Positions 24,089 through 28,366 of a stretch of DNA of 64,000 nucleotides are shown piece after piece (within the stretch, counting starts at the first letter, position 1; every line of letters starts with the position of its first letter). The stretch spans positions 186,001 through 250,000 of the forward strand of contig NZ_VIGW01000002.1 in assembly GCF_007858435.1 (NCBI RefSeq). The letters run 5' to 3'. Position numbers and translations under genes: made by a program. The stretch is from Tsukamurella asaccharolytica (GTDB lineage: Bacteria; Actinomycetota; Actinomycetes; Mycobacteriales; Mycobacteriaceae). The notes below the pieces were generated by a model. It was not told where the DNA came from and made no database searches. It saw only the letters and a program-made list of their open reading frames with translations.

Positions 24089-24780
24089 TCAGAGCTTGGC
24101 CGCCACCCGCTTGACGACCTCGTCGAACGTGGCGGTGTCGACGGCGCCGTCGGCGCCCGGGTTGGCGTTCACCATCGCCAGCACGCCGTTCTTGGTGAAG
24201 TACGCCGACGCCGAACGCGCGGTCTGCCCGTTGGTGGTCCGGGCGATCTCGAACACGAAGCCCTGGGCCCCCGAGATCCCCGCGGGGAGATCCTTGCGGA
24301 CCGTCGTCTGCGTGAGCGCCTCGCCGAACGAGATCGAGGCGCATTCGCCGGTGCCGGCCGCTTCGAATGCGGACAGCCGCGCCGAGCTGGGGAGCAGTGT
24401 CACGCCGAACTTGACCACGTTGTCGGCGGACAGGCTCTGCTGGACCCCGAACTTGACGGTGTCGAGCAGCTCCTGCTGCGCGGCGACGTTCTTGTCCTTG
24501 CACGCGGCCGGCGTGATCGCGGCGGCCTGCACCTGACCGACGGACTGCATCGCCGACTGGAACGCCGTGTCGGCGGGCACCGTCGCCACGGTCAGGCCGG
24601 CCGGCACCTCGGCCTGGGCGAGTGCCTTCGCCCCGTCGACCGGCGGGGCGTCCCGTGGGGCTTCCGGCGACGACGAGGAGGTTGTGGAATCGCCCCGCCG
24701 CCGCACGCGGCGAGCACGAGGCCCGACGCGGCGAGCGCCGCGAGGATGCCGAGGGAACGGGTCGGGTCATTGCGGCGCAA
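24089..24780 (-). pseudogene. Lipoprotein gene with a frameshift in a G-run
   Basis: The N-terminal part reads as a classic lipoprotein signal: MRRNDPTRSL, hydrophobic core, lipobox LAAC, then GGG. The frame is then lost at four C's (24693-24696, GGGG on the coding strand). From there another frame continues DSTTSSSSPEAP and about 180 residues of well-formed secreted-protein sequence to a stop at 24089. One extra G would join them. The mature part contains two Cys (AACKDK and GECASIS) that could form a disulfide. Family not recognised. This could be a true mutation, a phase-variable tract, or a sequencing error. It is convergent with ppa. Confidence 0.75.
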
Positions 24781-24815: not shown

Positions 24816-27800
24816 CTAGACCTTACCGAACCGCCTCAGGAACGACGCGGCGAAGGCCGGGTATCCGCCGTCGCGGATCGCGCGGCGCGCGGCGGCGGCG
24901 AGGGACACGAAGAAGTGCTCGTTGTGCAGGGTGCACAGAGTCACGGCGAGGCCCTCGTTCGCGGCGAAGAGGTGGTGCACGTAGGCCCGGGTGAAGGCGT
25001 CGGTCCGGTTGGTCCCACCCGGCCGCTCCTCGGCGGGGTCGAGCGGCCGGAAGTCGGCGCGCAGCGACGGGGCCGTGATGTCCAGGACGCCCGTCGACGT
25101 GTAGACACGGCCCTCGGCGCCGGCCCGCGCGGGCTCGGTGCCGTCGAGCAGGTCGACGCCCGCCTCGATCGCGGCGAGCAGGTCGGCCGGGCCGGCGATG
25201 CCGCCGAGGTAGCGCGGGCGGTCGGTCTCGAGCTCCTCGACGGCGGCACGCAGCAGCGCCGGTTCGTGCGCGGGCGCGGCGATGCCCTCGATCCGGTATC
25301 CGCCGAAGCCCAGCCCCCCGGACCGGCGGTCCTCGTCGGCGAGCCTGCGCAGCGCGCGGGCTGCGGACCGTCGACCCTCGGGATCGGCGCCTCCCGTCAC
25401 GACGGCCCAGAGGGAGAGGGCGTCGTGACGGTCGGCGGTCTGCCAGGCGTGCTCCGCGAGCGCCCGGCGCGCCCACCGCTCCGTCCGTGCGGCATCGTCC
25501 GCGTCGGCGAGCGCGAAGCCGACGTCGAAGCCCATGCGGTGGGCGAGGCGCACCGCATCCTCCGGGCCCCACCGGTGCGGCGAGCCGTCGAGTCGGCCTC
25601 GGAAGGCGATGCCCTCGTCGGTGATCCGCGTCGTGCGCTGCTCTGCCACGGCGGCGGCACCGGTGTCGGCGATCGTGGGCCCGCCCCAGGCCATCGCGGC
25701 GCCGATGCCGCCGGCGCCCTCGATGACGTCGACGCCGGGCTGCAGGTACAGCTCGTGCAGGTCGACGGTCAGCGCCGCGGCACCGAGGCCCGTCAGCTCG
25801 CGCGGGGTGAGGCCGGCGATCGCGCCGCGGCTCGCCACCGGGACGAAGGCGGGCGTGGCGATCTCCCCGCGCGGGAGCACCAGGCCGCCGGCCCGCGCGC
25901 CGCCGGGGCCGCCGGCCTCGACCGTGAACCGCACGGGGTCGGTGGTGCCGGAGGCGCGCAGCCGGGTGTTGCCGGCGATCGCCCGGTAGCCGGTTCTCAG
26001 TTCCGCGAGTTCGGCGGCGAGCGAGGCGTTCTGTGCGCGGAGCTCGTCGATCTCCGAGCGCGGGGCCGGGGGCTGCGCGGGGGTGGACGACAGGGGGACG
26101 GGGCCGGTCGGCGGTTCGGTCACGGTCTCCTCCGTCGCTGCTGTGCCCGCCACCGCTGCCGCGGCGGCGCTGGTCTCCGCGGTCTCGATGCTGTCAGGCG
26201 TCGCGACCGGGCCGGACTCCGGGGTCGTCGCCTCGATGGCCGGCGCGGTGCGGAGCGGGACCGCCTTCCAGAAGAGCACGAGAAGAAGACCGATCGCGGA
26301 AACGACGGCGACGGCGAGGAAGACGACGTCCATCGAGTCCGCGAACCCGGCCTTGAGCGGATGGACCAGGGCGTCGGGCAGCGTCTGCAGCGCGGAGGTG
26401 TCGGACATGACGTCGCTGACGGCGCTGGAGTCGCCGTGCATCAGCTTGGCGGCGAACTCCTGTGCGGCCGGGCCGTCGTTGCCGGCCGCGGCGCGCTGGA
26501 CCGCGGCCATGTACTCCGGGTCTGCGGCGGCGTCGCTCATCCGGGTGCTCATCTTGTTCGGCATCTGGGAGAACAGCACCGACAGGAAGACGGCGACGCC
26601 GAGGGTGCCGCCGATCTGCCGGAAGAAGGTCGCCGCGGCGGTGGAGACGCCCATGTCCCTCGGCGGGAGGATGTTCTGCAACGCGAGCGTGAGCGGCTGC
26701 ATCAGGTTGCCGAGGCCGAAGCCGATCACGGCCGCCCCGGCCATGACCCAGCCGATCTCGACGTCGGCGCTGATGTAGTGCATGCCGAACATGCCGGCCG
26801 TGAGCAGCACCGCGCCGATGACCGGGAAGATCCGGTAGCGCCCCGTCCGCGAGATCATCTGGCCCGCGAGGATGGAGCCGAGCATGAGGCCCGCGACCAT
26901 GGGCAGCATGAGGAAGCCCGCCTTCGTCGGGCTGGCACCGCGGACCACCTGGAAGTACTGAGGCAGCAACGAGATGCCGCCGAACATGGCGGCGCCCACG
27001 ACCATCGAGATGAGCACGCCCTGCGCGAAGATCCGGTTCTTGAAGATGCGGAGCGGGATGATCGCGTCCTCGCCCATGAGCTTCTCGATCAGGACGAACG
27101 CGACGATCCCGACCGCGCCGACGACGTAGCAGGCGATCGCCTTGGTCGAACCCCAGCCCCACTCCTGCCCCTGCTCGGCGACGATGAGCAGCGGCACGAG
27201 GCCGACGGAGAGCGCGATGGCCCCGAACCAGTCGATGCGCACGCCCTCGCGGCGCGTGTGCGGGAGGCGCAGCACGCGGTAGACGACGGCCAGGGCGACG
27301 ATGCCGATCGGCACGTTCACCAGGAAGACCCAGCGCCAGCCGGAGATGCCGAGGATGTTGTCGGCGCCGGAGAACAAGCCGCCGAGCACCGGGCCCAGGA
27401 CCGAGCTGGTGCCGAACACGGCGAGGAAGTAGCCCTGGTACTTCGCCCGCTCGCGGGGCGGCACGATGTCGCCGATGATCGTGAGCGCCAGCGACATCAG
27501 GCCACCGGCACCCAGGCCCTGCACCGCACGGAACGCGGCGAGCTCGTACATCGAGGTGGCCGTGCTGCACAGCAGCGAGCCGACTACGAAGACCGTGATG
27601 GCGAACATGAAGAAGGGCTTGCGGCCGTAGATGTCCGACAGCTTGCCGTAGAGCGGGGTGACGATCGTCGAGGTGATGAGGTACGCGGTGGTGACCCACG
27701 CCTGCAGCTTGTAGCCGTTGAGGTCGTCGGCGATGGTGCGGATCGCGGTGGAGACGATCGTCTGGTCGAGCGCGGCCAGGAACATGCCGGTCATCAGGCC

Positions 27801-27893
27801 CGACAGGATGTAGAGGATCTGCTTGTGCGTGAGGCCGGCGCCCGCGGTCTCCACGCCCGCGGTGTCGCCGCGGTCGGCCGTCGCGGCGGTCAT
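24816..27893 (-). CDS. MFS drug-efflux transporter fused to a degenerate tRNA-guanine transglycosylase domain
   Basis: One open frame of 1,025 residues. Residues ~25-545 form a 14-helix DHA2-type drug:H+ antiporter: LDQTIVSTAIRTIADDL in helix 1, GKLSDIYGRKP as motif A, and a GTSSVLGPVLGGLF antiporter motif. Residues 546-650 are an Ala/Thr/Pro linker with a short coiled coil (SEIDELRAQNASLAAELAELR). Residues ~654-1025 follow the TGT fold: TPAFVPV, GLTPREL, ITDEGIAFRGRLDGS, RPRYLGGIAGPADLL, GVDLLDG, RAYVHHLF and LHNEHFF. Of the TGT catalytic residues, Asp743 (ADTG) and Asp917 (LLDG) remain, but the CxCxxC zinc ligands are missing. It overlaps the marR stop by 4 nt (ATGA), so expression is tied to that repressor. 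Confidence 0.85.
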   Translation of the reverse strand: MTAATADRGDTAGVETAGAGLTHKQILYILSGLMTGMFLAALDQTIVSTAIRTIADDLNGYKLQAWVTTAYLITSTIVTPLYGKLSDIYGRKPFFMFAITVFVVGSLLCSTATSMYELAAFRAVQGLGAGGLMSLALTIIGDIVPPRERAKYQGYFLAVFGTSSVLGPVLGGLFSGADNILGISGWRWVFLVNVPIGIVALAVVYRVLRLPHTRREGVRIDWFGAIALSVGLVPLLIVAEQGQEWGWGSTKAIACYVVGAVGIVAFVLIEKLMGEDAIIPLRIFKNRIFAQGVLISMVVGAAMFGGISLLPQYFQVVRGASPTKAGFLMLPMVAGLMLGSILAGQMISRTGRYRIFPVIGAVLLTAGMFGMHYISADVEIGWVMAGAAVIGFGLGNLMQPLTLALQNILPPRDMGVSTAAATFFRQIGGTLGVAVFLSVLFSQMPNKMSTRMSDAAADPEYMAAVQRAAAGNDGPAAQEFAAKLMHGDSSAVSDVMSDTSALQTLPDALVHPLKAGFADSMDVVFLAVAVVSAIGLLLVLFWKAVPLRTAPAIEATTPESGPVATPDSIETAETSAAAAAVAGTAATEETVTEPPTGPVPLSSTPAQPPAPRSEIDELRAQNASLAAELAELRTGYRAIAGNTRLRASGTTDPVRFTVEAGGPGGARAGGLVLPRGEIATPAFVPVASRGAIAGLTPRELTGLGAAALTVDLHELYLQPGVDVIEGAGGIGAAMAWGGPTIADTGAAAVAEQRTTRITDEGIAFRGRLDGSPHRWGPEDAVRLAHRMGFDVGFALADADDAARTERWARRALAEHAWQTADRHDALSLWAVVTGGADPEGRRSAARALRRLADEDRRSGGLGFGGYRIEGIAAPAHEPALLRAAVEELETDRPRYLGGIAGPADLLAAIEAGVDLLDGTEPARAGAEGRVYTSTGVLDITAPSLRADFRPLDPAEERPGGTNRTDAFTRAYVHHLFAANEGLAVTLCTLHNEHFFVSLAAAARRAIRDGGYPAFAASFLRRFGKV

Positions 27894-28366
27894 TCGCCGT
27901 CCCGCATCAACTTGAGCGCCTGCTCGAACTGCACCAGGGCCCGGTTCCCCAGCGTGACGAACTGGTCGATCTCCTCGTCGGTCCACTGCTCCATGAGGGG
28001 CCGGAGCTTCTCATTGCGCTGCGCCCGGATGACGTCGGCCTTGGCCTTGCCGGCGACGGTGGCGGACACCAGGGCCGCACGGCGGTCGGAGGGGTCCGCG
28101 GTGCGCTCCGCGTAGCCGAGATTGGTCAGCGTGGTCACGTACCGGCTCGCGGTGGAGGGGTCCGTGTGGATCTGCTCCGCGAGCACGGACGAGCGCATCG
28201 GCCCGCCCTTCACCAGCGCGAACAGCGCGGTGTACGCCGCGAGTTCGACACCGTCGGGCGCGACTGCGTGGCGCGTCATCACCGCGTGCCGCTCCTTGAG
28301 CCTGGTGAGTTCGGCGATCACGCCGACCATCCCCTCGATCCGCTCCGCGCGTTCCTCGTCCGTCAT
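27890..28366 (-). CDS. MarR-family transcriptional regulator
   Basis: A 158-residue winged-helix protein. The DNA-binding core includes MRSSVLAEQIHTDPSTASRYVTTLTNLGYAER (recognition helix around residues 68-80) and the wing DPSDRRAALVSAT. It has a good ribosome binding site (GGAGGCGAG) before the ATG. It is translated together with the transporter-TGT fusion through a 4-nt overlap, so it is probably its repressor. Upstream (28,400-28,440) an AT-rich stretch with TACG...CGTA symmetry is a possible operator, but the symmetry is weak. Confidence 0.9.
   Translation of the reverse strand: MTDEERAERIEGMVGVIAELTRLKERHAVMTRHAVAPDGVELAAYTALFALVKGGPMRSSVLAEQIHTDPSTASRYVTTLTNLGYAERTADPSDRRAALVSATVAGKAKADVIRAQRNEKLRPLMEQWTDEEIDQFVTLGNRALVQFEQALKLMRDGE

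Follow-up and report, generated by a model that had tools for sequence, protein, structure and literature searches.

The gene at positions 24816 to 27893 of a 64,000-nucleotide stretch of the Tsukamurella asaccharolytica genome (the window; positions 186,001 to 250,000 of contig NZ_VIGW01000002.1, assembly GCF_007858435.1) encodes one in-frame protein: an exporter of the DHA2 type from the major facilitator superfamily (MFS), a linker, a leucine zipper, and a domain with the fold of tRNA-guanine transglycosylase (TGT). The same zipper-TGT tail follows five different transporters in this genus. The architecture, its spread through the genus, and the common origin of the tails are as good as certain. 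What the tail does is another matter. The favoured reading is that it serves as a dimerisation or docking module, rather than as an enzyme, a sensor or a fossil, and the balance of the comparisons below leaves that reading with about an even chance of being right. The parts of the gene, and the regulator before it, are as follows.

24816..27893, minus strand: whole gene, MFS exporter, linker, zipper and pseudo-TGT in a single open frame of 1025 amino acids plus stop
26259..27893, minus strand: DHA2 (EmrB/OtrB-like) MFS exporter, residues 1-545 (PF07690, MFS_1, at residues 33-432, 2.5e-53; DHA2 model TIGR00711, 273.5 bits, above its cut-off of 230.2; unfused orthologs elsewhere)
26061..26258, minus strand: Pro/Ala-rich linker, residues about 546-611 (near-neutral substitution, variable length among orthologs)
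25983..26054, minus strand: three-heptad leucine zipper, residues 614-637, with I615, L618, N622, L625, L629, L632 and Y636 at a/d positions (invariant positions, low a/d variability)
24828..25901, minus strand: degenerate TGT domain, residues 665-1022 (PF01702, 8.1e-67, 226 bits against a cut-off of 26.3; TIGR00430, 190.6 bits, under the cut-off of 306.75)
25665..25667, minus strand: Asp743, aligned with D102 of the Zymomonas mobilis TGT
25143..25145, minus strand: Asp917, aligned with the Z. mobilis nucleophile D280
24918..24989, minus strand: residues 969-992, aligned with Z. mobilis 328-351, which hold the dimer hot-spot residues Y330 and H333 (the segment closest to the intact enzyme)
27890..28366, minus strand: MarR-family regulator (PF12802, 6.2e-10; PF01047, 6.4e-9), its stop overlapping the start codon of the pump

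An earlier note on this DNA, made from its letters alone, had read exporter, linker, coil, and degenerate TGT in a single frame. The Pfam matches and 14 orthologous loci bear this out: the TGT hidden Markov model matches the C-terminal part significantly, and residues 545-655 hold no stop or frameshift, the frame being open at all 14 loci, each from a different assembly. An artefact or sequencing error as the source of the fusion is thus ruled out.

Sixteen Tsukamurella genomes were sampled and 41 TGT loci counted in them. The window genome (G000; 4.12 Mb in 81 contigs) has two, about 205 kb apart on the same contig. The second (L043; G000:C21:415694-423366, minus strand) is the ordinary, intact tgt of this organism, and it too is fused: a frame of 1443 amino acids joins an MMPL transporter, a linker, the same zipper coil, and TGT. 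This type, MMPL-1 with an intact TGT, occurs in 16 of 16 genomes; its frame is open in 14, and a contig end truncates the G011 copy. (The two halves of the G009 gene, L048, MMPL and TGT, lie in different frames, with the change falling within the linker; this is either a real split or a sequencing error.) The window type, MFS-A, occurs in 15 of the 16, fused in 14 and free in one (G009), and was not found in the sixteenth, G011, an assembly of 890 contigs. A second MMPL type, MMPL-2, carries a more decayed TGT at eight loci. Two further MFS carriers are rare: MFS-B in one genome (G006) and MFS-C in one (G010), along with a second MFS-C in G011 whose sequence stops at a contig end before TGT is reached. 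Copies from G009 and G011 stand outside the tree, the zipper counts, and the residue counts given below.

Two observations from T. tyrosinosolvens belong beside this census. A 5'-truncated MMPL-2-TGT gene (L005:2298-6146; L067) has an ISL3-like element, ISPfr2, immediately upstream and was apparently cut by its insertion. A PLSDB table for this species (L003:756-2749), which is incomplete, lists MarR and a 355-residue TGT that starts inside the fused frame, with no entry for the pump. (Counts and trees omit L003, which is identical to L062; L005 represents L067, which has the same tail.)

The carriers themselves are distant relatives. The three MFS pumps are mutually 25-30% identical (25% for the window pump and that of MFS-B), and MMPL-1 and MMPL-2 are 41% identical. 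The tails of MFS-B and of the window gene, by comparison, are 71% identical, so tails have evidently moved between pumps. Beyond the genus, a wider family search covered 301 genomes, 16 of them Tsukamurella. At 30 TGT loci from other genera, each examined with 1.5 kb upstream, none of the five Tsukamurella transporters matches in the TGT frame, and the long TGT frames seen elsewhere (for the weaker matches in the family, frame lengths cover a subset of the genomes) were for this reason rejected as further fusions. Among the matches listed, at least three genomes outside Tsukamurella have two TGT matches, in one case (G182) on two contigs. Two TGT matches are seen in G287, a genome of another genus.

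In Tsukamurella sp. PLM1 (G009; NZ_AP025688.1) the tail stands without its pump. The locus is syntenic with the window: a class-V aminotransferase (93% identical), a putative flavin-reductase-like open reading frame (85%), and MarR (81%) come before the tail, and a relative (57%) of the small open reading frame at window 24089-24706 comes after it. No match to the pump was found at this locus. In its place a free gene of 438 amino acids (L054:4205-6083) begins 28 bases behind the MarR stop and comprises a remnant of the linker, the zipper, and TGT (PF01702, 7.1e-70), with the zipper a/d residues and both catalytic Asp kept. Against five fused tails, the coil gives a ratio of non-synonymous to synonymous change (pN/pS) of 0.15-0.26 and TGT one of 0.35-0.48, near the value for a fused pair (0.40). 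An open zipper-TGT gene behind MarR, with the pump absent, indicates that the tail can persist on its own. (The small neighbour is a 205-residue frame on the minus strand of the window, adjoining the tail and without a Pfam match; its relative in PLM1 occupies the same place, as does an open reading frame annotated as hypothetical in T. tyrosinosolvens.)

The PLM1 arrangement also invites the view that the active product is soluble: translation from an internal start in the linker would yield a free zipper-TGT protein that pairs with the active TGT and regulates it, the pump being a carrier that can be lost. In 9 of the 14 orthologs a GTG at residue 591 follows a GGAG-like sequence, and the PLSDB table likewise begins its TGT within the fused frame. 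The putative start is, however, not conserved in L049-L052 or L061, and Glu-Glu codons tend to produce GGAG-like sequence anyway, which leaves this view a slim prospect.

Where the tail came from is clearer. A tree of 53 TGT domains, including 15 of the 29 TGTs from other genera (a quick search, with some long branches), places all the Tsukamurella TGT domains that it includes in one clade against those of the other genera and, inside it, all 24 degenerate tails in one clade; the SH-like approximate likelihood ratio support is 100 for each. The G010 tail (L049) is basal in the degenerate clade and nearest to the intact enzyme, and the MFS-B tail is nested among the MFS-A tails. Judged from this tree, the tails tested all descend from the genus's own tgt. 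The ppa neighbour in the window as a sign of the source tgt was rejected, as the tail groups with the MMPL-fused tgt of the genus.

At 6 of the 30 other-genus loci tgt is preceded on the same strand, within 1.5 kb, by an MMPL gene. Longer stretches of eleven loci, a non-random set in which six were picked for their upstream MMPL, confirmed those six and added a seventh at a distance of about 2 kb; the MMPL ends and TGT starts of these stretches showed no coil. With midpoint rooting, MMPL-2 is placed separately from both MMPL-1 and the MMPLs that adjoin tgt in other genera. Given that MMPL precedes tgt at some loci of other genera, the first fusion probably arose at such an MMPL-tgt locus, through a lost stop and a new linker. 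The tail would then have been copied behind four other exporters, and its chemistry would have decayed while zipper and fold were retained. The earlier note had suggested a fossil of a neighbouring tgt, captured by read-through. For the window gene this finds no support: the source tgt is about 205 kb away, the zipper is shared, the tail is under purifying selection, and it outlives the pump in PLM1. Read-through itself probably did occur, once, at the MMPL-tgt locus.

Selection was gauged from pN/pS in 12 ortholog pairs, hand-chosen from 91 possible. The ratio ranges from 0 to 0.33 in the coil (residues 612-650), 0.05 to 0.24 in the pump, 0.14 to 0.44 in TGT, and 0.36 to 1.13 in the linker (residues 560-612); in every one of the 12 pairs the coil has a lower value than TGT, and in 8 of them also a lower value than the pump. 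The tail is under purifying selection, though less constrained than the pump. A nearly free linker between constrained parts, together with a frame never lost in the fused loci, argues that the tail is not a fossil.

Set beside bacterial TGT (Z. mobilis, PF01702/TIGR00430), whose residue numbers are used here, the window tail matches about 360 residues and keeps the Asp pair, but its pocket is dismantled, its zinc cysteines are absent, and its score is below that of an equivalog. It passes the superfamily model TIGR00449 (185.3 bits, cut-off 47.6) and fails the Tgt equivalog model TIGR00430, which the intact MMPL-fused copy passes at 376.5 bits. MMPL-1 copies retain D102, D156, Q203, D280, R286, R289, and H349. 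Among the 14 window-type tails, D280 is kept in all and D102 in 13; D156 has become Ala in 13, Q203 has become Thr (11), Ala (2), or Gly (1), and the segment after D102 is deleted in 13. The window copy itself has D156A, Q203T, and a gap at the Y106 loop, and so lacks the guanine pocket at its defining positions (D156, Q203, and the Y106 loop). MMPL-2 tails have lost more of the barrel, and in 7 of 8 D280 has become Glu.

With L070 (at a contig end) and L049 (nearest to intact) excluded, 13 window-type tails are 42% identical to the intact consensus overall and 21% identical at pocket positions, a value that 2.8% of random position sets match or undercut. Their best-kept 24-column segment, at 74% identity, corresponds to Z. 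mobilis 328-351, the dimer helix; the TGT dimer hot spot described in the available text of PMC5395182 includes Y330 and H333 in this helix. In MMPL-2 tails the best-kept segment is the coil (65%).

The earlier note had found Asp743 and Asp917 kept, the CxCxxC zinc site gone, and the His kept. All of this is observed, but the missing cysteines do not mark decay: they are also absent from the intact MMPL-1 copies and from 10 of the 29 TGTs of other genera. Loss of the zinc site, which occurs in unfused TGTs too, was accordingly rejected as a sign of degeneration. (In those ten other-genus loci, L091 and L093-L101, the active-site residues looked at are kept, so active TGTs without this zinc site may exist.) Two compositional features of the degenerate tails may be recorded here. 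They are Ala-rich, and their guanine-plus-cytosine content reaches 0.78, compared with about 0.68 for the pump half. Lysine is nearly absent from them, averaging 14.0 per 372 residues in intact copies, 2.4 in the window type, and 0.4 in MMPL-2; drift, lost RNA binding, and avoided lysine tagging are candidate causes.

Judged by its residues, the window tail has probably lost normal TGT activity. The suggestion in the earlier note that it senses or presents a purine-like cargo loses ground as well, since the guanine-recognition residues are the part that is gone; it may bind something else. A tail that is still an enzyme, with D102 and D280 acting on another base or RNA at the membrane, would account for the Asp pair, nearly universal in window-type tails and kept in the free PLM1 tail, and for purifying selection on the TGT domain. 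It fits poorly with the loss of the loop after D102 (G105-Q107 onward), of D156 and Q203, and of K52, with the fall in lysines from 14.0 to 2.4, and with the Glu at position 280 of most MMPL-2 tails; a changed specificity is accordingly a poor bet.

The other constant of the tail is the zipper. Linker length varies from 64 to 91 residues across 14 window-type orthologs, and all 38 copies have the same residue at the positions of N622, L629, L632, and Y636. N622 occupies an a position, where Asn is characteristic of GCN4-like parallel dimers. On each side, at least 36 of the 38 copies have E-R as the outer g/e' pair, and most g/e' E-R pairs are kept. Across 14 diverse copies the entropy rises from 0.33 at a/d positions to 0.67 at e/g and 1.13 at b/c/f (permutation p 0.01, a/d versus the rest). 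Hydrophobic a/d heptads, a single Asn at a, and g-e' pairs together predict a parallel dimer. The best match in the PDB is the designed peptide CC-Di, a weak one (E 0.015), and other PDB matches are weak and to generic coils.

Coil and TGT travel together: of 41 coil matches in the 16 genomes, 40 adjoin a TGT match and one runs into a contig end at the start of TGT. A scan of GTDB r220 found no zipper outside Tsukamurella, all 25 loci being of this genus; to be reported, a locus had to show one of two short peptide patterns, and with 25 loci against 41 coils in the genus sample the scan missed known copies. The a, d, e, and g residues largely agree between tail classes, so tails of different pumps could pair through their zippers.

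It is here that the docking module can be weighed against a simpler view, in which only the zipper, or just the bulk of the tail, counts and TGT is a passenger in slow decay. MMPL-2 tails suit that view, their coil outlasting parts of the barrel; so do the weaker constraint on TGT than on coil and pump in most pairs and the drift toward Ala and a guanine-plus-cytosine content of about 0.78. Set against it are the TGT pN/pS values (0.14-0.44) and the open frame in 14 of 14 fused window-type loci, the selective retention of the dimer helix in window-type tails, and the persistence of an open 438-residue zipper-TGT gene in PLM1. A mere passenger therefore seems unlikely, if less so than the enzymatic and soluble alternatives.

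According to the docking model, a cytoplasmic tail of linker, zipper, and TGT fold extends the C-terminus of the exporter and does so, among the genomes searched, only in Tsukamurella. DHA2 and MMPL transporters have their C-termini in the cytoplasm, which should place the tail on the cytosolic side in each of the five carriers. Through the zipper and the TGT dimer helix, a tailed protein would then be able to pair with its own kind, with other tailed proteins, or with the active MMPL-TGT. Such pairing would resemble that of the eukaryotic TGT, in which QTRT1 is the catalytic subunit and QTRT2 a non-catalytic partner (PMC8136771); both the partner of the tail and any effect on export are conjectural. 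QTRT2 is likewise a TGT-fold paralog without catalysis that pairs with an active copy. The window tail differs from it in being fused to a membrane pump, its own pairing being presumed by analogy, and by sequence it is nearer to bacterial TGT (6.3e-50) than to QTRT2 (partial matches, best E 1.6e-9).

Several observations weigh against the docking model. The zipper is only three heptads long. In every one of the 12 pairs TGT is under weaker constraint than the pump, and 13 of 14 window-type tails retain both catalytic Asp, which a pure scaffold would not need. The other half of the dimer interface, loop/helix alpha1, is poorly conserved in window-type tails (27%); this speaks against a normal homodimer and would suit docking from one side onto an intact copy. 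The dimer helix shows no special conservation in MMPL-2 tails (35% versus 30% overall). Of the interface and pocket positions compared, only the four hot-spot residues are taken from PMC5395182; the sliding-window comparison is independent of the choice of positions. As the tail occurs without a pump in PLM1, any job it has must go beyond pairing copies of the window pump, and PLM1 is itself a single assembly with a completeness figure of 83%, in which assembly errors are possible. A stronger version of the model, in which a dead-enzyme zipper plug assembles up to five distant MMPL and MFS transporters, the free PLM1 plug, and the active MMPL-TGT into membrane hetero-oligomers, possibly linking drug or lipid export to queuosine state, is doubtful.

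Fusions of this kind are already in print, contrary to the earlier note, which knew of no described MFS-TGT protein. The available text of Quaiyum et al. 2024 (PMC11130926) reports an MFS-TGT (Tpau_0550, D5USC3) and an MMPL-TGT (Tpau_4044, D5UNC0) as fusions unique to Tsukamurella, and uses TGT fusions as leads to queuosine-precursor transporters; Table 1 there has no Tsukamurella protein among those tested. Genus and, by description, architecture are the same as here, and the window gene most likely has its ortholog in Tpau_0550, the two being set alongside by description only. Two fusion types are treated in that text; the lost pocket, the zipper, the five carriers, and the tail swapping do not appear in the part available. 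Among the papers listed in literature searches on bacterial TGT pseudoenzymes and on queuosine, TGT, MMPL, and MFS in Tsukamurella, only this one was on point. The present analysis adds the intact tgt fused to MMPL, the same zipper-TGT tail on a second MMPL and three distant MFS, their common descent, the pocket loss, and the zipper.

The lead of Quaiyum et al. is that the fused transporter imports a queuosine precursor (preQ1 or queuine) and passes it to the TGT domain. By the available text of the same paper, TGT is fused in other bacteria to the known importer QPTR, and a Bartonella henselae MFS transported preQ0 and preQ1. The likeness to the QPTR-TGT fusion is a TGT on a membrane transporter; the difference is that QPTR is a precursor importer (Vut_1), whereas the Tsukamurella carriers are MFS and MMPL proteins and QPTR is a separate gene.

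The genomic context does fit salvage. QueA is found in 0 of 16 Tsukamurella genomes. QueC has no convincing copy: 15 of the 16 genomes matched, 14 over the Pfam cut-off, only at positions 5-60 of 210 (20.7-22.4 bits, in frames of 656-1255 amino acids), and these short partial matches inside long frames were rejected. In both genomes inspected for it, T. tyrosinosolvens (by annotation) and the window genome (311 bits, cut-off 250), GluQRS is close to tgt. Taken together, these suggest that queuosine is probably made from an imported base. Most Mycobacteriales are reported to keep tgt only (PMC11570991). A separate QPTR gene is present in 16 of 16 genomes, so the window pump is not needed to explain salvage; a base taken up through QPTR and then inserted by the intact MMPL-TGT would fit. 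Import by the fused pump sits uneasily, too, with the loss of the guanine-recognition residues, with tails on five different transporters and one without a pump, and with the orthology of the pump to unfused exporters. A Corynebacterium MMPL also failed to complement for preQ1, a result for which its authors could not exclude poor expression (PMC11130926, available text). Direct metabolic coupling is on these grounds improbable.

The exporter half is the more conventional. OtrB and Tcr3 models match it at 437 and 417 bits, far below their cut-offs of 999 and 1000, and drug export is a candidate function. The 14 helices assigned to it in the earlier note are putative, the TIGR00711 match being what bears on them. 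Full-length unfused orthologs, 55-71% identical, occur in 8 of 12 searched genomes of other genera; at 7 of these 8 loci a MarR relative lies directly upstream on the same strand. The unfused pumps end 11-62 residues past the motif that closes the window pump (residue 545-548), with no TGT in their frames. By these comparisons the window pump is an old MarR-regulated DHA2 exporter, an older unit than its tail. The coupling of MarR to the pump, which the earlier note had proposed, is supported by the overlap of the MarR stop with the ATG of the pump. The window locus thus shares with the MarR-DHA2 efflux operons (OtrB/EmrB-like) of related genera an orthologous pump with MarR upstream, and differs in the TGT tail, seen only in Tsukamurella among the genomes searched.

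Gene fusions are often read as metabolic coupling (the 'Rosetta stone' argument), and the Tsukamurella transporter-TGT fusions have been used in that way. A tail carried by distant transporters, with its pocket lost, and kept without the pump in one species, points instead to a role in assembly or partnership, and the fusion alone is insufficient to name these pumps queuosine-precursor importers. If the tails do pair, they would be a bacterial analogue of QTRT2 and would illustrate how domains are shuffled between membrane pumps, an intermediate (L049) being still visible.

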